Positions 19,008 to 27,726 of a DNA stretch of 64,000 bases are shown here, in pieces. Below the pieces are notes generated by a model. That model ran no database searches. It had not been told where the DNA came from and saw only the letters and a program-made list of their open reading frames with translations. This stretch comes from Acidobacteriaceae bacterium (lineage in GTDB: Bacteria; Acidobacteriota; Terriglobia; Terriglobales; Acidobacteriaceae): NCBI GenBank assembly GCA_003131585.1, contig PKVW01000074.1, forward strand, positions 1 to 64,000, in the 5' to 3' direction. The translations under genes and the position numbers were made by a program. Each line of letters begins with the position of its first letter. The first letter of the stretch is position 1.

Positions 19008-20591
19008 ATGCGCACCATCTCTCGATGTTTGCTGGCAATCCTCGTTTGCGGATTTTCTTTTCTAGGAGCTGGGGCACAGTGTCCCGCGCGCCCCGCCGCC
19101 GGTTCCGTAGTTCAGGATGTCCTGAGCCTTTCGTCGCAAAACGGAACCCTTAACGCAAGGTTCGCGATGGGATACTCGGTCGATACCTACGGCTATTCGC
19201 ACTACTGCTACAAGTACGAGACCGCCACTGGGGCCGTCGAATCCCCTACGTTGCGGCTCAACCCCGGCGACCGGTTGCTCCTGGACGTTAAGAACCGCAT
19301 CCAGGGCGATGGCGCTGACTCGATGAGCGGAATGGAAAACATGCAGGGCTCGCCCGCCGCAGTCTGCGGCGACGGCGGTAACATGACCGTGCAGTCCACC
19401 AACGTTCACTTTCATGGTCTCAATGTTTCCCCCACCTGCCACCAGGATGACGTGCTCACCACGTTGATTCAACCCGGTACGCCGGGATTTGAATATAGTA
19501 TCCAGATTCCGACGACGGAGCCGCCGGGCCTGTATTGGTACCATCCGCACGTGCATGGCTTCACAGAGTTTCAGGTGAACGGTGGCGCTGCCGGCGCGCT
19601 TGTGGTCGAGGGGATGGAAAAGGTACGTCCTGAAGTGACTGGACTGACGGAGCGAGTCTTCGTCATTCGCCAGCAGTACCTGGTTCCCTGGGTGCCGGGA
19701 CCCTACCAACTGACTCTGAACTACCAGACCGCCGTTGCCCCCAACTTCCCCTCTCCTGTCATCCAAATGAAGCCGGGTGAGAAACAGTTTTGGCGGGTTG
19801 CCAATGCGAGCATCCAGGATTTCATGCCGTTGCAGGTATGGATTAACGGTACGCCGGAGCAACTGCAGTTGATCGCGCTCGACGGCTACCCCTTGACCGC
19901 GACTCGGCTCGTCGAGACCATCCTTGTGCCTCCGGCGGGACGGGCGGAATTTATTGTGCAGGGCCCGGCCACGGGATCGAATGGCCAGTTCATCTCCCTG
20001 GCTTATTCAACCGGTCCCACCGGCAACCAGGATTTCGAACAGCTACTGGCGGATATCGAACCCACCGGCGCCAGCGAAATCAAGAAAGAGGTGGCGAAGC
20101 CGCTTGCAGCCGCTCCCAAAATCTCCATCGCGGGCCTTAAATTCACGGGGCTGAAGGAGCAGACGCCCACCGCCACGCGCAGCCTCTACTTCTCCGAGGA
20201 ATTTGGCGGAACCAACGGACCGATTCAGTTCTACATCACCGTCGAAGGACAAAAGCAACAGGTCTTCGAACCCAACGAGAAGCCGGTGATCACCACCAAG
20301 GTAGGAGCGGTAGAAGACTGGACCATCGAAAACCGCGCCCTTGAAACCCACGCCTTTCACATCCATCAGATCCACTTCATGATGCTGGAAGTCGACGGAA
20401 AACCGGTCACCGACCAGGATCTTCGCGACACGATCGAAATCCCTTACTGGTCTGGGACCGGTCCCTTCCACAGCGTGAAGGTGCGTATGGATTTCCGCGA
20501 CCCAACCATCGCAGGCACTTTCGTGTTCCACTGCCATATCCTGCTGCACGAGGATCTCGGCATGATGCATAAGATCCTGGTCCAGCCCTAG
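19008..20591 (+). CDS. Secreted multicopper oxidase (laccase/CueO-like)
   Basis: 527 residues with a signal peptide (MRTISRCLLAILVCGFSFLGAGAQ) and AGGAG 9 bp before the ATG. Three cupredoxin domains are implied by four copper motifs: HFHG (about residue 138), HPHVHG (about 182), HAFHIHQIHF (about 452) and FHCHILLHEDLGMM near the end, giving type 1, 2 and 3 sites. A Met-containing stretch (MSGMENMQG) near residue 105 could help bind Cu(I). The protein should oxidise Cu(I), Mn(II) or phenols in the periplasm and reduce O2. It differs in subfamily from the oxidase at 3365. Confidence 0.92.
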   Translation: MRTISRCLLAILVCGFSFLGAGAQCPARPAAGSVVQDVLSLSSQNGTLNARFAMGYSVDTYGYSHYCYKYETATGAVESPTLRLNPGDRLLLDVKNRIQGDGADSMSGMENMQGSPAAVCGDGGNMTVQSTNVHFHGLNVSPTCHQDDVLTTLIQPGTPGFEYSIQIPTTEPPGLYWYHPHVHGFTEFQVNGGAAGALVVEGMEKVRPEVTGLTERVFVIRQQYLVPWVPGPYQLTLNYQTAVAPNFPSPVIQMKPGEKQFWRVANASIQDFMPLQVWINGTPEQLQLIALDGYPLTATRLVETILVPPAGRAEFIVQGPATGSNGQFISLAYSTGPTGNQDFEQLLADIEPTGASEIKKEVAKPLAAAPKISIAGLKFTGLKEQTPTATRSLYFSEEFGGTNGPIQFYITVEGQKQQVFEPNEKPVITTKVGAVEDWTIENRALETHAFHIHQIHFMMLEVDGKPVTDQDLRDTIEIPYWSGTGPFHSVKVRMDFRDPTIAGTFVFHCHILLHEDLGMMHKILVQP

Positions 20592-20627
20592 TAGCCCGCG
20601 GCTGCCAAAAAAGGAAGGTTGCAACCC

Positions 20628-21038
20628 ATGCGAAGAACGACTCTGCTCGTCGTGAGCGCTACCCTATTGACGATAGCCGGCTACTGGTACGGAAATAGGG
20701 ACGTCACAGTGGCCTACGCCGGATCCCCTATACGGGGCACTGTCCCGAAATCGTATGGACGCCTCGTTGCGGCCATTCCAGACCAAATCGGTACCGGACT
20801 CATTTTCGAAGATGGCGAAGGTGTGATTCGCTTCGTCAGCATGACTGGCATGAAAGAAGGCGAACTCGCGCGCTACGACCAAACTCCCACCCATGGCGGA
20901 ATCCCCAGATCATACGGTCATCTCGTGGCGGCGGTGGTGAACTCTGAGGGCACCGGCCTGGTTTTCGAGGACAGCCAGGGCGTGATTCGTTTCGTCACAA
21001 TAACCGGCAAGCAAGAGGCAGAACTAACCCGCAATTGA
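20628..21038 (+). CDS. Small exported protein with a duplicated 44-residue unit
   Basis: 136 residues from the ATG at 20628, with AAGGAAGG 9 bp upstream. An N-terminal hydrophobic segment (about residues 5-20) is a signal peptide or anchor. The rest is two copies of one unit: VPKSYGRLVAAIPDQIGTGLIFEDGEGVIRFVSMTG-type and IPRSYGHLVAAVVNSEGTGLVFEDSQGVIRFVTITG-type, each ending KxxELxR. The unit looks like a small beta domain. I know of no named family; it may be an accessory of the oxidase 36 bp upstream, judged only by position. Confidence 0.68.
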   Translation: MRRTTLLVVSATLLTIAGYWYGNRDVTVAYAGSPIRGTVPKSYGRLVAAIPDQIGTGLIFEDGEGVIRFVSMTGMKEGELARYDQTPTHGGIPRSYGHLVAAVVNSEGTGLVFEDSQGVIRFVTITGKQEAELTRN

Positions 21039-21060
21039 ATGAACGGCGCCCGGTGGAAGA

Positions 21061-21108
21061 GCGGCGCTTCAGCGCCGCGTAAAGCCTCTAAAATCAGCGC
21101 AGGCTTTA
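21061..21108. repeat. Two adjacent hairpins before the truncated RHS gene
   Basis: GCGGCGC-TTCA-GCGCCGC (21061-21078) and TAAAGCCT (21080-21087)/AGGCTTTA (21101-21108), both perfect. This is the REP-like kind seen elsewhere in the window, and it lies exactly where the RHS frame loses its expected N-terminal part. Confidence 0.6.
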
Positions 21109-21115
21109 GCCCCAG

Positions 21116-22501
21116 TTGGTCGCATTTTGCGTCCAGCAGTACGGCTACGACAAAGGTTCCAACCGCACCTCAATGACCGATCCACAAAGCGTACCCACCA
21201 CTTACGGCTACGACACCCTGAACCGCTTGAACAGCCTGACCTATAACGGGCAGACTCCGAACTTTACTTTCGGCTATGACGCCCTCAGCCGCCGCAACTC
21301 GCTCACCCGCCCCAACGCCGTGGACACCACCTACGGCTACGACCCCGTGTCGCGCCTGCAAAGCGTGCTGCACAAGCTGGGTACGACCATGCTCGATGGC
21401 GCCACCTATACCTATGACGGTGCCGGTAACCGCCTTACCCGGACGGACAAGCGCCTGGGTACAACCCTCACCTATGGCTACGACACCATCTACCAGTTGA
21501 AAACGGCCAAGCAGGGGACTACGACCAAAGAGAGCTACACTTACGACTCGGTGGGCAATAGACTCAGTTCCTCAGGCGTGAGCCCCTACAACTACAATTC
21601 GTCGAACGAGCTGACCTCGATCCCGAGCGGCAGCTACGGCTACGACAACAACGGCAACCGCAAGACCGACCCCAGCGGCACGCAGTACAGTTGGGACTTC
21701 GAGAACCGGCTGACGCAGGTGATTCTGCCTGGAACCGGCGGCACGGCAAATTTCAAGTACGATCCGTTCGGGAGGAGAGTGCAGAAAGCGTTCACGCAGA
21801 ACGGGACGACGACTACCACGGATTATTTGTACGATGGCGCAAACATTCTGGAAACGATGAACCAGAGCGGGACCGTTCTGTCACGCTACACAGGCTCGCT
21901 GAACATTGACGAGCCGCTGTCTGAACTGATCTCTGGGACAACCAGTTACTACGAACAGGACGGTCTCGGCTCGGTTAGCTCACTGAGCAATTCGGCGGGG
22001 GCCCTGGCTAACACCTATTCGTATGATTCCTATGGCAAGATGATTGCGTCGACAGGCACACTCGCTAATCCGTTCCAGTACACCGGGCGCGAGCTCGATC
22101 CCGAGAGTGGAATCTACGAGTACAGGGCGCGCTATTACGACCAAAGCGTCGGGCGGTTCCTCAGCGAAGATCCAATCAGGTTCAAGGCCGGCGTCGATTT
22201 CTACACGTACGTATTAAACAATCCTCCCAACTTCGGCGACCCGAGCGGCCTCCAAAGTGGGAGCTCCGTTATCGACCATCACCTGAATGTCTGCCCGAGA
22301 GCGGGGAGAATCGAAGACCAGTGCAGGTGCCACTGCATCTACACCGGCGATATCGAAGCGTGCATAAAAACCTGCACGAACTGCTTCTCGTCCAAGAATC
22401 CTAAGGCCCACGACGTTTGCATCTGCACATGTGAAACGGCCAAACAGGCCGGAGCACCCATAAACGCATCCTGTGACTGCGTGTGTAAGAGTGTGAAATG
22501 A
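21116..22501 (+). CDS. 5'-truncated RHS/YD-repeat protein with Cys-rich C-terminal tip
   Basis: 461 residues; the only start in this frame is a TTG with no ribosome site, and the frame opens at once into YD repeats (YGYDKGSNRTSMTD, YGYDTLNRLNSLTYN, YTYDGAGNRLTR). These are the 3' part of an RHS shell, so the gene has lost its beginning, perhaps through the hairpin repeat just upstream. The core ends at the usual boundary (YEYRARYYDQSVGRFLSEDP, then DPSGL at about residue 382). Beyond it is an unrelated tip of about 80 residues with 13 Cys, in CxC and CxCxC patterns. It overlaps the next gene by 4 bp (ATGA). It may be an orphan rhs end, silent or expressed by coupling. Confidence 0.75.
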   Translation: MVAFCVQQYGYDKGSNRTSMTDPQSVPTTYGYDTLNRLNSLTYNGQTPNFTFGYDALSRRNSLTRPNAVDTTYGYDPVSRLQSVLHKLGTTMLDGATYTYDGAGNRLTRTDKRLGTTLTYGYDTIYQLKTAKQGTTTKESYTYDSVGNRLSSSGVSPYNYNSSNELTSIPSGSYGYDNNGNRKTDPSGTQYSWDFENRLTQVILPGTGGTANFKYDPFGRRVQKAFTQNGTTTTTDYLYDGANILETMNQSGTVLSRYTGSLNIDEPLSELISGTTSYYEQDGLGSVSSLSNSAGALANTYSYDSYGKMIASTGTLANPFQYTGRELDPESGIYEYRARYYDQSVGRFLSEDPIRFKAGVDFYTYVLNNPPNFGDPSGLQSGSSVIDHHLNVCPRAGRIEDQCRCHCIYTGDIEACIKTCTNCFSSKNPKAHDVCICTCETAKQAGAPINASCDCVCKSVK

Positions 22502-22971
22502 GCAGAATCATCGTATTCCTTGCCTCCCTGATGCTCGTCTCGTGCACAACGGGCGGACATAAAACCGCCGCATCGGTAGTCCTGCCGGATCCGAGCCTCT
22601 TGAGGTGCGGGGCGGGCGCCCACTCCCGTCTCTGGAAGGACTCCGCTATTGCCAAGGACGCCATCTTTCCTAAACAGCTGACCGTTGATCTTGAAAATGA
22701 GTGCATCCCTGCACTGACGGCGGTGTACGATAAGGGCGTCCCCACCTCTGAGATAAGATCCGCCATCGATGCGAACTACGGTAAGTGGGCCTTCTCGGCG
22801 ACGTCCGCTGCACCGTCGAACCTATGGCTGTGGCGAATCGAACCTGAGAAATTCGCTATCAGCCTAACTGTGGACGATGACGGCACTAAGAAGATTCACT
22901 ACCTAGCCTTCCAGAAGAACGCGAAGGTGTTCAAAGACTGGACGGACGCCTTGACCGGCGGGCCCAAATAG
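22498..22971 (+). CDS. Putative lipoprotein, candidate partner/immunity of the RHS tip
   Basis: 157 residues. MSRIIVFLASLMLVSC has a lipobox (LVSC, Cys16), so the protein should be lipidated and held in a membrane facing the periplasm. The mature part has no motif I recognise; it carries two Cys (near residues 34 and 62) that could pair. Its ATG overlaps the RHS stop (ATGA), the arrangement usual for toxin-tip and immunity pairs. No homologue can be named, so the immunity role is only suggested by position and predicted location. Confidence 0.7.
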   Translation: MSRIIVFLASLMLVSCTTGGHKTAASVVLPDPSLLRCGAGAHSRLWKDSAIAKDAIFPKQLTVDLENECIPALTAVYDKGVPTSEIRSAIDANYGKWAFSATSAAPSNLWLWRIEPEKFAISLTVDDDGTKKIHYLAFQKNAKVFKDWTDALTGGPK

Positions 22972-23061
22972 GAGGGCGGGTGGCCCACCTTTATTGCTAC
23001 CGACAATGTAAATTCCAGCCCAACCCGCTTAAGATTCCCGGAGTCTGCTGGAGCATCGCCG

Positions 23062-23490
23062 ATGGCCGCTGACAAGCGTATTCTCCTTGCGGTCCGCGGG
23101 GGCGTGGTCTGCGCCATCCTCGGATCCCTGATCGGCGGCTCTGCCGTCCTGCTAATCTCAGCGATCCGCGGAAACTTCGGACTGGCGGCGCTCTCCCTGA
23201 TTCCGATTGCTTTCGTCTACGCGGCAGTCACCGGGGTCCCCTTCGGGTTTGTCGCGGGTATAGCTGGCACTTTGTGGATCGCCGCTCGCGCACAGCACGT
23301 CTCGGGAAAGCGCCTCTACTATGAGGCAGCAGGGGCCGGTGTGCTGATTGGGGCTTTATATCCACTAGCTCTGACGGTTTTCGGATGGGGCCCCCTGGAA
23401 AATCTCCTGTCCGAACTACCAATCTCCATCGGGGCCGGGGTCGTATGCGGGCTGGCACTTTCCCGAGAAGTGCAAAAAGGGACTGCATAA
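23062..23490 (+). CDS. Hypothetical four-helix membrane protein
   Basis: 142 residues with a GGAG ribosome site 9 bp before the ATG. Four hydrophobic stretches are visible (about residues 12-35, 40-60, 62-75, 88-110, with a further GAGVVCGLAL segment near 120-132), Gly/Ala-rich and with few charges, so this is an inner-membrane protein. There is no recognised domain. It follows the RHS-lipoprotein pair by 90 bp and precedes a block of interspersed repeats; it may be part of the same cassette or an unrelated orphan. Confidence 0.6.
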   Translation: MAADKRILLAVRGGVVCAILGSLIGGSAVLLISAIRGNFGLAALSLIPIAFVYAAVTGVPFGFVAGIAGTLWIAARAQHVSGKRLYYEAAGAGVLIGALYPLALTVFGWGPLENLLSELPISIGAGVVCGLALSREVQKGTA

Positions 23491-23503
23491 GAGGTAATTC
23501 GGA

Positions 23504-23733
23504 CGGGTGGCCCAGGCTTTCGATCTTGCCGGGTGCGGAGGAATGCGGGGACAGGAATGGCGGGTGGCCCCACCTTTAGCGGTTTCTGTGTGCATCAATC
23601 CCACAGAGGGTGCCCCATCCTTGCGTTTTTTGCAAGGGTGGGCGACGGTGCTGCCTGTGCTACGGGGTTTGTCATGCCAAAAAGTGCGGGATGATCAACC
23701 CAATTGCGCAAGCATTCCCGACTCCCGCCCTTC
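23504..23733. repeat. Mosaic interspersed repeat, copy 1
   Basis: Segments shared with 55444-55592: gggtggcccaggctttcgat (23505-23524), a hairpin around gtgccccatccttgc/gcaagggtggg (23609-23643), and an inverted stretch agtgcgggatgatcaaccca with the bases that follow it. Short open frames here and at 55346 share the peptide AQAFDLAG because of this repeat. With the next repeat it accounts for much of the 560-bp gap 23491-24050. Confidence 0.7.
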
Positions 23734-24050: not shown

Positions 24051-25055
24051 ATGAAACTTTCCCATATCGCCTCCGCCCTGAACGCGCGCCTCGACAACGG
24101 CTCCCCCGATACCGAGATCACGGGACTCAATGGCATTGAGCAGGCTGTGCCCGGAGAAATCACCTTCGTCGCCAACTCCAAGTATGCCGCCGCGGCCCGG
24201 CTTACCAAGGCCGCAGCCGTGATCGTTGCCGAGAACTTTCCCGTCATTCCTGCGGCCACGCTGCGCGTAAAGGATCCGTATCTCAGTTTCGCGCGCGCTC
24301 TCGAGCTCTTTCATCAACCACTTCGCTACGCGCCGGGAGTGCATGCCACGGCAGTGATTCATCCCACCGCAAAGATTGGACGCGACGCCCACATCGGACC
24401 TTACGTGGTTGTGGACGAAAACGTCGAGATCGGCGACCATGCTGTGCTGTTGGCGCACGTGGTGATCTATCGCGGGGTAAAGATCGGCGATAATTTCTTC
24501 GCCCACGCACACGCTGTGGTCCGCGAAAACTGCCGCATCGGCCACAACGTGCTGCTGCAGAACGGCGTCGTGATCGGCGCCGACGGCTTCGGCTTCGCCA
24601 AAACTCACGACGGACATTGGCACAAAATTCCTCAACCTGCGCCGGTCGTCATCGAAGACGACGTGGAAGTCCAGGCAAACTCCTGCATCGACCGCGCCAG
24701 CGTCGGCGAAACCCGCATCGGGCGCGGCGTTAAGATCGACAATCTCGTGCAGGTCGGCCACGGCTCGCAGGTCGGCGAAGACGCGTTACTCTGCTCCCAG
24801 GTCGGCCTGGGTGGTTCCACGGAAATCGGCAACAAAGTCATTCTGACCGGTCAGGTCGGAGTCGTTGGCCACTGCAAGGTCGGGGAATCCGCCATCGTCA
24901 CGCCGCAGAGCGGTGTGGCGAATGACGTTCCCGCCGGCGCTCTGGTCAGCGGCGCTCCCGCCGTCGATCACAAATTGTGGTTGAAGTATTCTGCCATCCT
25001 GCCTAGATTGCCGGAGATCGCACGCGCGGTCCGGGCGAAGATCTCAAGAAAATGA
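24051..25055 (+). CDS. lpxD: UDP-3-O-(3-hydroxyacyl)glucosamine N-acyltransferase
   Basis: 334 residues from the ATG at 24051; the longer open frame upstream is repeat sequence. The N-terminal uridine-binding domain ([37 protein letters not shown]) is followed by a left-handed beta-helix of hexapeptide repeats ([19 protein letters not shown], through [10 protein letters not shown] and [14 protein letters not shown]) and a short C-terminal helix. The enzyme adds the amide-linked hydroxyacyl chain in lipid A synthesis, so this is a diderm with LPS. It is convergent with plsC, 24 bp apart. Other lpx genes are not in the window. Confidence 0.95.
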
Positions 25056-25079: not shown

Positions 25080-25841
25080 TCAACGCCCCGCATTTCTTCT
25101 GTGCGCTTCCGTGACCTCCGTGGTCGCAGAGATCTCCTGCCGAAACTCCTCCGGCAATCCGCTATCAATCGCCGCCCGCACTTTCTCCATCAAACATTCC
25201 CGGCTGCCGAAATCTTTCGGCTCGATCGGCGGATGAAAAATCACCGTTGCCGTTCCCGGCTTGATTGCGAACCTTCCCTTCGGCATCAAGTAATGCGTGC
25301 CTGCAATGGTCACAGGAACCACCGGCACATCGCACTCCATCGCCAAATAAAATGGTCCCTTCTTGAACGGCAGCAGCCTGCCATCGAACGAGCGATGGCC
25401 TTCCACATAGATCGTCATGTTGATCCCCTGCTGCACGACCTGCTTTGCGGCGCGCACCGATTCAATTCCAGCGTCACGATTGCCGCGGTCGACCGGTACC
25501 AGCGAGCCCATACGCATCGCCCGACCCAGGATGGGATAGCTAAACAATTCCTTCTTCACCATCACCGAAGTGCGCTTCGGAATCAGCGGGATCGTAATTG
25601 GCGGGTCCAGGTTCGACACGTGGTTCGACATGAAGATATAGGTGCGCGCCGAATCTAGTTTGTCGAGCCCGACGGTTTGCACCCGCACGCCGGTCAGGCG
25701 GACTCCATTCCACGCGCCAATCATGAACATGCGGTACAGCAGGCTGACGTCTCCGGTGAGAAGCGTCCAGGGAAATCCGACGAGCGCCGCCACGGGCGCG
25801 GCCAGTCCCCAGAAAATCAGCATCACGAGGGTGCGGATCAT
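25080..25841 (-). CDS. plsC: 1-acyl-sn-glycerol-3-phosphate acyltransferase
   Basis: 253 residues. The acyltransferase motifs are NHVSNLDPP (HxxxxD near residue 73), VPVDRGNRDAG, YVEGHRSFDG (the usual EGTRS with His in place of Thr) and VPVVPVTIAG. A hydrophobic N-terminal segment anchors it at the membrane. It makes phosphatidic acid from lysophosphatidic acid. The gene is last in the reverse run mgtC-dapF-ldcA-mpl-M61-plsC; the 58 bp between it and the peptidase gene are 15-bp tandem repeats that run up to its ATG, leaving no normal ribosome site. Confidence 0.9.
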   Translation of the reverse strand: MIRTLVMLIFWGLAAPVAALVGFPWTLLTGDVSLLYRMFMIGAWNGVRLTGVRVQTVGLDKLDSARTYIFMSNHVSNLDPPITIPLIPKRTSVMVKKELFSYPILGRAMRMGSLVPVDRGNRDAGIESVRAAKQVVQQGINMTIYVEGHRSFDGRLLPFKKGPFYLAMECDVPVVPVTIAGTHYLMPKGRFAIKPGTATVIFHPPIEPKDFGSRECLMEKVRAAIDSGLPEEFRQEISATTEVTEAHRRNAGR

Positions 25842-25842
25842 T

Positions 25843-25915
25843 GTGAGTTTGCCCCCGTTGAGTGTGCCCCCGTCGAGTGTGCCCTAGTGTGAGTGTGCTT
25901 TAGTGCGAGTGTGTC
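25843..25915. repeat. 15-bp tandem repeat between plsC and the M61 gene
   Basis: About five units of the form g(t/c)(t/c/g)gagtgtgccccc, decaying to gtgcgagtgtgtctc. The repeat touches the plsC start codon and includes the stop and last codons (THSH) of the M61 peptidase. Confidence 0.8.
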
Positions 25916-27726
25916 TCTGGCGGAACCTGCGCCTCGCCCTTCAGCCACGCGGCACGGCGCGCCCGCTGTTCCGCGGTAATGTTCTCCATGTCTTTGAGCT
26001 CGTACGTGATTTCTTCGCGGCTTCCTGCCTTCCACTTCAATTCGCGCTCCCCGCCGCGCCGGCCGCGGATCTTCAACGTGATTGTGTCGCCCGGATTCAA
26101 CCGAGCCATCTGCTGTGACAATTCCTGTCCGGCCGCGCTGCCGTCGATTTCCAGAACCGTATCGCCCGCGTGCAGACCGGCGCGCTCAGCCTCGCTGCCC
26201 GCGGTCACCTCCGCCACAGTCATTGGACCGTCAAAGTTTCGCGAGGCCACAAATCCCGCATCCGCTAAAGTGTTCTTTCCTTCCGCCAGACGCAGTCCCA
26301 CGCCGCGGAAGAAGTCGTTCCACGGAATCTCCTCCGTGCCCGCGACATACTTCACGAAAAACCACCCCAGATCGGCGTGGCTCACCGCCTCCGCAGCCTC
26401 GCGCACGCCCTCCGAATCAGAAAACAACCGTCCGCTCTTCGCGTAATTCTGATTCATCCATTGAAAGACCTCGCGCAGGGAGGCCTGTCCGTGGCTGGCC
26501 TCGCGCACCGCCAAATCCAGCGTGATGCCCAACAACTCGCCTTTGTTGTAATAAGAAATGCTGCGCTCCGGACGACGGTAATATGCGTCGCCCTCCAGCC
26601 ACGCATCCAGACTCGACTCTTCCGCCGACTGCGTCAGGTGCGCGGGACGCCGTTCGAGTTCGCCGATCCCTGACGCCAGCTCTTGCTCGAAGTGGCCCTC
26701 GTCGAGCAGTCCACCGCGCAACTGGATCATGTCTGCCGCCGTGCTGGTGCAGCCCTCGCTGAACCAAAGCGCCCGCGTATAATTTTCTCTCGTGTAATCC
26801 ACCGGCTCGAGGGTCTGTGGGCGGATGCGCTTCACGTTCCACAGATGAAAAAACTCGTGCGCCGTCACCGAAGCCAGCACCTCGGGAGCCCGCGCCAGCA
26901 CATCCGCATTCACCGCAATCGCGGTCGAGTAGGAGTGTTCCATGCCACCGCCCGCGGGCCCGCGCGGAAAGTGATAGAGAAACATGTAGTTGTCGAAGGG
27001 ACGATCGTCCATCCAGTTAGTCGCGGCCGCGACGATCTTGTGCAGCATGGCGGAAATCTTTTCCATATCGTAGTCGCCAGACTGGGCGTCAACCACCACT
27101 CGATAGTGTCCGCCGCCTTCGTCGAAATCAGATTCCTGGAACATTCCGATCTCGACCGGAGAATCCACCAGCCGGTCATAGCTTTCCGCGCTAAACCCGC
27201 CCTCGGGTATTGACGCCAGCGGCGTGGCGACGTGCCATCCCTCGGGGACTTGGTTGAAGCGCACGACCACCGGCCTCTTGCGCGCGTCCACGGGATACAT
27301 CAGCACCTGAGCGAGATTAAAGAATGCATGCTGCGAATTGAACTGAGCGCCGAATGGCCCGGGCGAATCTACAAAGATCCGATACTCAACGACGGCGCCG
27401 CCCTCCGCATCCTCAATCTGCCATCGGCTCTTGTCCAACTGGCGCACGGCGAGCGGCCGGCCCGTACGGTCTCGCGCGCGCACCCAGCTCACGTATTGCG
27501 CGAAGTCGCGCACCTGATACAGCGCGTTCCACACCGGAAGCTGCAACTCCCGCTGCGCCGACCCTTCCGGCAGCAGAATCCGCACCTCCACCAGATGCTG
27601 GCTGGAGTTTGCCAGAGAAATTGTGTAGTTGGTTGCAGCGTAGGAAGGCGCGAGAGCCATCCACATGAGCAGAGCGAAGCGAAGAATCTGCCGCTTGAGG
27701 CCTCGCCTCGTGGTGGAACGCCTCAT
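25900..27726 (-). CDS. Secreted M61-family metallopeptidase with PDZ domain
   Basis: 608 residues. A signal peptide (after basic MRRSTTRRGLKRQ) precedes the N-terminal beta domain. The gluzincin site is HEFFHLWN (about residues 289-296), with the third zinc ligand Glu in WFSEG about 30 residues later, as in glycyl aminopeptidase-like M61 enzymes. GGGMEHSYS just before it is also conserved. A PDZ domain lies near residues 490-560 (AGLHAGDTVLEIDG). Family members cleave peptides, often next to Gly or acidic residues, in the periplasm. Its start overlaps the mpl stop by 4 bp (ATGA); co-expression with murein-peptide genes suggests a role in envelope peptide turnover, which is inference. The last codons are supplied by a tandem repeat. 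Confidence 0.9.
   Translation of the reverse strand: MRRSTTRRGLKRQILRFALLMWMALAPSYAATNYTISLANSSQHLVEVRILLPEGSAQRELQLPVWNALYQVRDFAQYVSWVRARDRTGRPLAVRQLDKSRWQIEDAEGGAVVEYRIFVDSPGPFGAQFNSQHAFFNLAQVLMYPVDARKRPVVVRFNQVPEGWHVATPLASIPEGGFSAESYDRLVDSPVEIGMFQESDFDEGGGHYRVVVDAQSGDYDMEKISAMLHKIVAAATNWMDDRPFDNYMFLYHFPRGPAGGGMEHSYSTAIAVNADVLARAPEVLASVTAHEFFHLWNVKRIRPQTLEPVDYTRENYTRALWFSEGCTSTAADMIQLRGGLLDEGHFEQELASGIGELERRPAHLTQSAEESSLDAWLEGDAYYRRPERSISYYNKGELLGITLDLAVREASHGQASLREVFQWMNQNYAKSGRLFSDSEGVREAAEAVSHADLGWFFVKYVAGTEEIPWNDFFRGVGLRLAEGKNTLADAGFVASRNFDGPMTVAEVTAGSEAERAGLHAGDTVLEIDGSAAGQELSQQMARLNPGDTITLKIRGRRGGERELKWKAGSREEITYELKDMENITAEQRARRAAWLKGEAQVPPETHSH

Follow-up and report, generated by a model that had tools for sequence, protein, structure and literature searches.

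An orphan RHS cassette with a cysteine-rich tip and an adjoining lipobox gene in an Acidobacteriaceae genome

Introduction

Displaced 3' ends of rhs genes have been described in Salmonella, where, according to PMC3967940, an rhs fragment without initiation or export signals lies beside an immunity gene, and expression is gained by recombination with the main rhs. The locus described here was found in a stretch of 64,000 nucleotides (hereafter the window), positions 1 to 64,000 of contig PKVW01000074.1, from an Acidobacteriaceae bacterium whose assembly (GCA_003131585.1) comprises 3.93 Mb in 75 contigs and is 96% complete. It resembles the orphan rhs-CT/rhsI modules of Salmonella (STM0292 and its relatives) in being a 3' fragment of rhs with a DPxGL boundary, a variable tip, a linked small gene, and no initiation or export signals. 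However, the Salmonella fragment follows a main rhs with which it has a near-identical 522-bp stretch in common, whereas the cassette in the window is alone in its assembly and follows no main rhs of similar core. It starts instead at a dispersed repeat, and its partner is a lipobox protein.

A second group of related systems comprises the Sec-exported RHS toxins, which Zhang et al. 2012 (PMC3482391) described together with standalone cassettes, naming Acidobacteria among the carriers of several toxin types. Full-length relatives of the core in the window share with these toxins their signal peptides (recognized by eye), RHS repeats, exchangeable tips, and an adjacent gene. In contrast, the copy in the window is without its entire 5' part, and its tip and partner match no family in the libraries searched.

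The third group is that of the bacterial teneurin-like proteins, in which, according to PMC13018210, a YD/RHS shell surrounds a small C-terminal toxin and an immunity gene lies just downstream. The cryo-EM structure of such a toxin from B. inaquosorum has C2216 of the tip disulfide-bonded to C719 of the N-terminal plug. One full-length relative of the window's core, scanned whole, contains DUF6531 and RHS repeats, reaches 28.7 bits against TEN_YD-shell (cut-off 50), and has no NHL match at E ≤ 0.01. Tips of the Tlde1/YkuD type, which are peptidoglycan toxins (PF10908, PF03734), occur as sister tips on the window's core; the tip in the window is not as long as these, and a comparison with them gave no convincing similarity. 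Cysteines also matter in certain periplasm-acting toxins of type VI secretion systems, which, according to PMC5792426, carry three cysteines each and depend for their activation on the target cell's DsbA.

Results

Gene order and the truncated RHS core

The features of the locus are collected in Table 1. The 461 codons of the RHS frame contain no internal stop, and the frame matches the RHS repeats (PF05593, E 3e-15) and, at residues 303-379, the RHS-associated core (TIGR03696, E 4e-23), which ends in ...RARYYD...GDPSGL. Compared with a 1384-aa full-length RHS protein of the congener G011, the core is 67% identical to residues 888-1261, the match beginning at 21122, and the sequence 21122-22252 is the 3' third of an RHS shell. 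The first-pass annotation of this DNA had described an RHS core that lacks its beginning and is closed by the RARYYD...DPSGL boundary, and the comparison with the full-length relative bears this out. Repeats and a core ending in DPxGL are therefore present as in RHS polymorphic toxins, and an export signal, an intact shell, and an own start codon are absent.

Table 1. Features of the RHS cassette, in positions of the window
Feature	Position	Strand	Basis or remark
RHS-containing ORF	21116-22501	+	461 aa, from the TTG listed as start
Dispersed repeat, 73 bp, with inverted core GCGGCGCTTCAGCGCCGC	21053-21125	.	Touches the broken 5' end of the RHS core
RHS core, 3' part only, with DPSGL at its end	21122-22252	+	PF05593, TIGR03696; 67% identity to congener
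Tip of 82 aa with 13 Cys	22253-22498	+	Sequence and Cys count
ATGA overlap of RHS stop and lipoprotein start	22498-22501	+	Sequence and ORF coordinates
Lipobox protein (LVSC), 157 aa, putative immunity partner	22498-22971	+	Member of a rare exported-protein family

The break coincides with a repeat that occurs in at least 43 places in the same genome, the window copy included; this is a lower bound, as 40 of 75 first-look candidates were scored. Many of the copies are 85-98% identical over query positions 18-90, and the inverted core is present as a single copy within the window at up to three mismatches. Because the repeat extends beyond the TTG listed as the start of the frame, that codon is repeat sequence and the RHS gene has no start of its own. 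A further copy (85%) lies some kilobases ahead of another RHS gene on contig C15 of the same genome (G000:C15), and one at 82% is found in the congener G004. In the genome's own assembly, the search for a full-length rhs to match this core came back empty, the next-best core matches having 30-38% identity over part of the core only.

The tip and the lipoprotein gene are tightly joined, as the first-pass annotation had noted: the ATG of the latter begins at 22498 and the RHS stop codon TGA occupies 22499-22501. The same ATGA-type offset of -4 between tip stop and partner start is seen in several sister cassettes. Third-position GC is 0.68 in the tip and 0.72 in the lipoprotein gene, with 0.62-0.77 in the neighboring genes. 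A scan for promoters of the sigma-70 type, the only type covered, found none within 20550-23700.

The neighboring frames are ordinary: a multicopper oxidase (19008-20591), LpxD (24051-25055), an acyltransferase (25080-25841), and an M61 peptidase with a PDZ domain (25900-27726). Just upstream, ORF 20619-21038 encodes 139 aa that open in a signal-like manner and contain a PKSYGRLVAAIPDQIGTGLIFEDGEGVIRFVSMTG-like unit twice; it has no match in Pfam and weak matches only in NCBIfam.

The cysteine-rich tip

The tip had been described as some 80 residues with 13 cysteines in arrays, and this count holds for the 82 residues past the boundary. Cysteines make up 15.9% of the tip, the highest density in a set of 117 complete RHS tips, each 60 aa or longer, in which the second reaches 9.7%; by this rank its cysteine richness exceeds chance. 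The cysteines form three CxCxC groups (CRCHC, CICTC, CDCVC) and one CxxxCxxC (CIKTCTNC). A model built from the single sequence, of low confidence (pLDDT 58), has the order strand-helix-strand-strand and places the CxCxC groups on the strands and the CxxxCxxC on the helix.

A domain search, as proposed at first pass, assigned the tip to no family: no match reached E ≤ 1 in Pfam, NCBIfam, or the PDB sequences, or E ≤ 0.1 in PADLOC and PHROGs, and hence none to a metal-binding family in these five collections. The proposed search for the same tip in other genomes was equally fruitless. Among 399 genomes of the class, only the genome itself matched at E ≤ 1e-3, no credible homologue was found in 61 relatives or in 398 genomes of the family (the three samples overlap), and plasmids and viral contigs gave no match. 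All frames of the tip region were also compared with 122 other tips, and nothing convincing emerged (best E 0.001). The weak matches from permissive searches (E up to 1 and 0.05) all scored at most 20.1 bits and were rejected as chance or wrong-frame matches; 24 of them were read in frame and the others were judged on score. The best of these outside the genome itself at E up to 0.05, in G436, overlaps an RHS stretch in another frame. Because no credible homologue was found, it is the position of the tip that suggests toxicity.

The lipoprotein gene

The protein encoded downstream begins with MSRIIVFLASLMLVSC, in which a hydrophobic stretch precedes the cysteine of an LVSC lipobox, as judged by hydropathy and pattern. 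It has no match to a family in the searched libraries. With a profile built from five sequences, its own family was found in 7 of 398 genomes of the Acidobacteriaceae, the source genome included, and the six homologues in other genomes are 28-37% identical to the window copy. A contig scan for this family recovered four loci, and those records that bear names are metagenome genomes of Acidobacteriaceae/Terriglobia. N-terminal hydrophobic stretches are common to the homologues, as is a CxxxxC pair; the window protein keeps the first cysteine of this pair and has lost the second.

Neither an RHS core nor the tip of the window was found at E ≤ 0.01 near the other six members, in stretches of 7-18 kb that end 0.8 kb upstream of the gene in G011 and 0.3 kb downstream of it in G446, where the contigs stop; G011:C24 served as the positive control. 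Their neighbors, named by eye, are proB-like, desaturase, kinase, uvrA-like, or transposase-like genes. Homologues recurring beside RHS tips, as expected of a dedicated RHS immunity family, were therefore found in none of six cases, and none of 54 other RHS partner ORFs resembles the window lipoprotein. Since the family stands without RHS at all six other sites, the lipoprotein gene may be a resident of the locus. At first pass it had been reasoned that a common gene unlinked to RHS would speak against the pairing; the family proves to be unlinked and, being confined to 7 of 398 genomes, rare rather than common.

The model of the lipoprotein (pLDDT 71) weakly resembles DcrB, a candidate for the DcrB/PsbP/Mog1-like fold (6e8a; VIA Z 6.5, rmsd 4.1 over 104 residues), and has no Foldseek match at E ≤ 0.001. 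Resemblance to SciW and EagT6, chaperones of Rhs/Tse effectors, came just behind at VIA Z 5.2-5.4, which is below the level that the tool treats as meaningful and too weak for interpretation. Nine weak profile matches to PDB sequences, at E 0.04 or worse and mostly to WD-repeat proteins, were set aside as chance.

Related cores and their cassettes

The same core was recovered from 11 of 45 genomes of the genus (E ≤ 1e-30) and 36 of 398 of the family (E ≤ 1e-35), the source genome being counted in both. Where core identity reaches 45% or more, there are 46 complete tips with a length of 60 aa or above, the window included, and they fall into 37 clusters. These 46 remained from 64 rows of the family sample after removal of 8 truncated tips, 7 with cores below 45%, and 3 that were short and had 3, 3, and 0 cysteines. 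Judged by these counts, the core is conserved and the tips are exchangeable among relatives, with many unrelated tips in the genus and the family. Three of 15 sister tips searched against Pfam exceeded the cut-off, with Tlde1_dom (E 3e-13), YkuD (E 6e-5), and DUF7689 (E 2e-12); M15_3 stayed under the Pfam cut-off, the tip of the 1384-aa G011 protein has a sub-threshold M15 match, and HExxH motifs were seen in further sister tips when read by eye.

For 45 of the 46 tips, that of the window among them, an ORF begins no more than 60 nt away from the tip stop. By a crude hydropathy test on the longest ORF near each tip stop, 22 partners have a signal peptide, 12 a signal peptide and membrane segments, 3 are membrane proteins, 8 are soluble, and 1 is absent, and since the longest ORF was chosen each time, some may be chance ORFs. 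With 37 of 46 exported or membrane-bound, such a partner is the usual case in the clade. Lipobox-like sites were flagged in 6 of 46, the window included, some of them doubtful. The first-pass remark that a cysteine-rich tip with a lipidated partner is an unrecognized pairing thus gives way to a pairing that is not exceptional for this clade.

Tandem cassettes were found in G011, G014, G441, and G028, each joining a core end of roughly 600 bp to a different tip and a different small gene. Most of them begin near core residue 170-177, shortly past the preceding partner gene, and in G011 and G014 the repeated piece follows directly behind a long rhs frame. These cassettes with their common 5' boundary (loci L070, L073, L074, and L076) are likely a unit of recombination. 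Such tandems do exist in sister genomes, though the source assembly offers no acceptor rhs.

Odd cysteine counts in the tips

A pattern of odd cysteine counts was noticed in tips of the genus, with no prior hypothesis, and then examined outside the genus. All complete tips with a length of 60 aa or above (53 rows from the family and 64 from the phylum) were binned by core identity, for which 209 residues were compared in the family sample and 101 in that of the phylum. Where the core is 45% or more identical to window positions 21626-22252, 59 of 60 tips bear cysteines, the number being odd in 55 of the 59; counted by cluster, 40 of 44 are odd (binomial p 8.5e-9). The fraction is 15 of 20 behind cores of 40-45% identity and 16 of 27 below 40%. 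Within the clade, odd counts occur in 15 of 15 tips from the genus after filtering, 28 of 31 from the rest of the family, and 12 of 13 from the phylum. Of these last 13 tips, a single genome, G763, supplies 5, and another is from G014, which belongs to the window's own genus.

The even exceptions have 10, 6, and 4 cysteines in the family and 10 in the phylum, and the family tips with 6 and 4 have one further cysteine each in the core piece. The core segment is free of cysteine in 57 of 64 rows, and mature signal-peptide partners, crudely cut, have an even number in 17 of 21 cases. Neither the first nor the last tip cysteine was found at a fixed position. With odd tips, a cysteine-poor core, and mostly even partners, each tip seems to have one cysteine beyond those that are paired. 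A pairing of this extra cysteine with the shell is suggested, like that in the solved teneurin-like toxin.

In the shells themselves, with the signal peptide removed by eye, 7 of 9 complete examples have an odd count (p 0.09). The odd ones are G011 (11), G023 (3), G429 (13), G763:C63 (23), G763:C221 (7), G756:C101 (5), and G799 (7), and the even ones G014 (12) and G703 (4). The count covers neither the N-terminally incomplete shells G528 (3), G763:C312 (9), and G756:C98 (3) nor G854 (3), whose tip runs off the end of its contig. Beyond the clade, G442 has two shells with an even count (6), both with 3-Cys tips, and the shell of G076 has 3 cysteines and its tip 0. A shell parity of 7 in 9 is suggestive but no proof, and we treat the tip-shell disulfide as a proposal.

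Discussion

The locus is an orphan RHS cassette, a kind already known, with a tip and a lipoprotein that match no family in the libraries searched and an immunity gene that is uncertain. On balance, we consider it probable, by a modest measure, that this is a solitary displaced rhs-tip cassette, i.e., the 3' end of a Sec-type Acidobacteriota RHS toxin that was severed at a dispersed repeat and retained its tip and the adjoining gene. The truncation at the repeat and the lack of a sigma-70-like promoter around the locus agree with this, as do the many unrelated tips on the same core, the tandem cassettes of sister genomes, and the Salmonella orphan cassettes that lack initiation and export signals beside an immunity gene (PMC3967940). 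With no main rhs of similar core in the assembly, the cassette is stranded.

The first-pass annotation had taken the variable tip for a toxin and the next gene for its immunity. The clade context favors this: known toxin-type domains of the Tlde1/YkuD kind in some sister tips and partners that are mostly exported or membrane-bound, a few of them lipobox-like, mean that tip and lipoprotein fit a toxin/immunity pair outside the cytoplasm. From position and clade, we infer that the tip may be toxic and the lipoprotein protective. The tip would be a small disulfide-rich (or metal-binding) toxin acting outside the cytoplasm, and the lipoprotein an envelope-anchored immunity protein translated by coupling. 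Because the export and start signals are missing, the tip would at present go undelivered. If the locus is maintained at all, it may be because it confers immunity or can donate DNA to a full-length rhs by recombination through the common core. Against the stranded cassette speak the failure to find a credible tip homologue in the searched genomes, plasmids, and viral contigs, the six other family members of the lipoprotein with neither RHS core nor tip nearby, which leave the immunity half of the first-pass proposal without a linked family, and the loss of the second cysteine of the CxxxxC pair. Among the 46 partners, moreover, eight look soluble, one tip has none, and some may be chance ORFs.

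The failure to find a tip homologue and the unlinked lipoprotein family, together with the missing start, sigma-70-like promoter, and full-length counterpart, could describe a dead remnant, in which an rhs tail left by repeat-associated rearrangement carries a decaying tip and the lipoprotein gene is an unrelated resident. We regard this as rather unlikely, however, as the frame has stayed open over its full length, the third-position GC of both tip and lipoprotein resembles that of the neighboring genes, and the tight ATGA overlap recurs in several sister cassettes.

It is improbable that the tip, instead of being a toxin, binds metal or serves as a redox module, with three strands bearing CxCxC arrays and the lipoprotein as its co-worker at the cell surface. 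The spacing of the cysteines and their placement on strands and helix in the model invite such a reading, but the model is of low confidence and was built without an alignment, no metal-binding family was matched, and an odd cysteine number is common to dozens of clade tips, several of them enzyme-like. Least probable of all is the first-pass idea of an active recombination reservoir, in which the fragment swaps its tip with a full-length rhs in the same cell: despite the tandem cassettes behind long rhs frames in two sister genomes and the Salmonella precedent (PMC3967940), the search of the source genome found no acceptor, its other cores being too distant for homologous exchange.

Whether stranded or not, the cassette belongs to a clade whose odd cysteine counts call for an explanation. 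A tentative one, which we hold to be less likely than not, is that the tips of this clade, whatever their enzyme, are disulfide-tethered to their own shell and that reduction in or on the target cell would free the toxin. The 13-Cys tip would then be an extreme member with six internal pairs and one tether, now orphaned. In the teneurin-like toxin (PMC13018210) such a bond was seen by cryo-EM, whereas in the clade of the window it is cysteine counts that suggest it. A search by title found no literature on an odd-cysteine pattern in RHS tips, which is no proof of its absence.

The locus adds an unmatched cysteine-rich tip and an unmatched lipoprotein to the known displaced RHS cassettes. The comparison with its clade, in which some tips are of peptidoglycan type and partners are mostly exported, is more useful than the locus itself, and the part most worth following is the clade-wide odd-cysteine pattern. 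If the odd counts reflect a tip-shell disulfide, a single cryo-EM observation would be extended to a general and testable release mechanism for exported RHS toxins.
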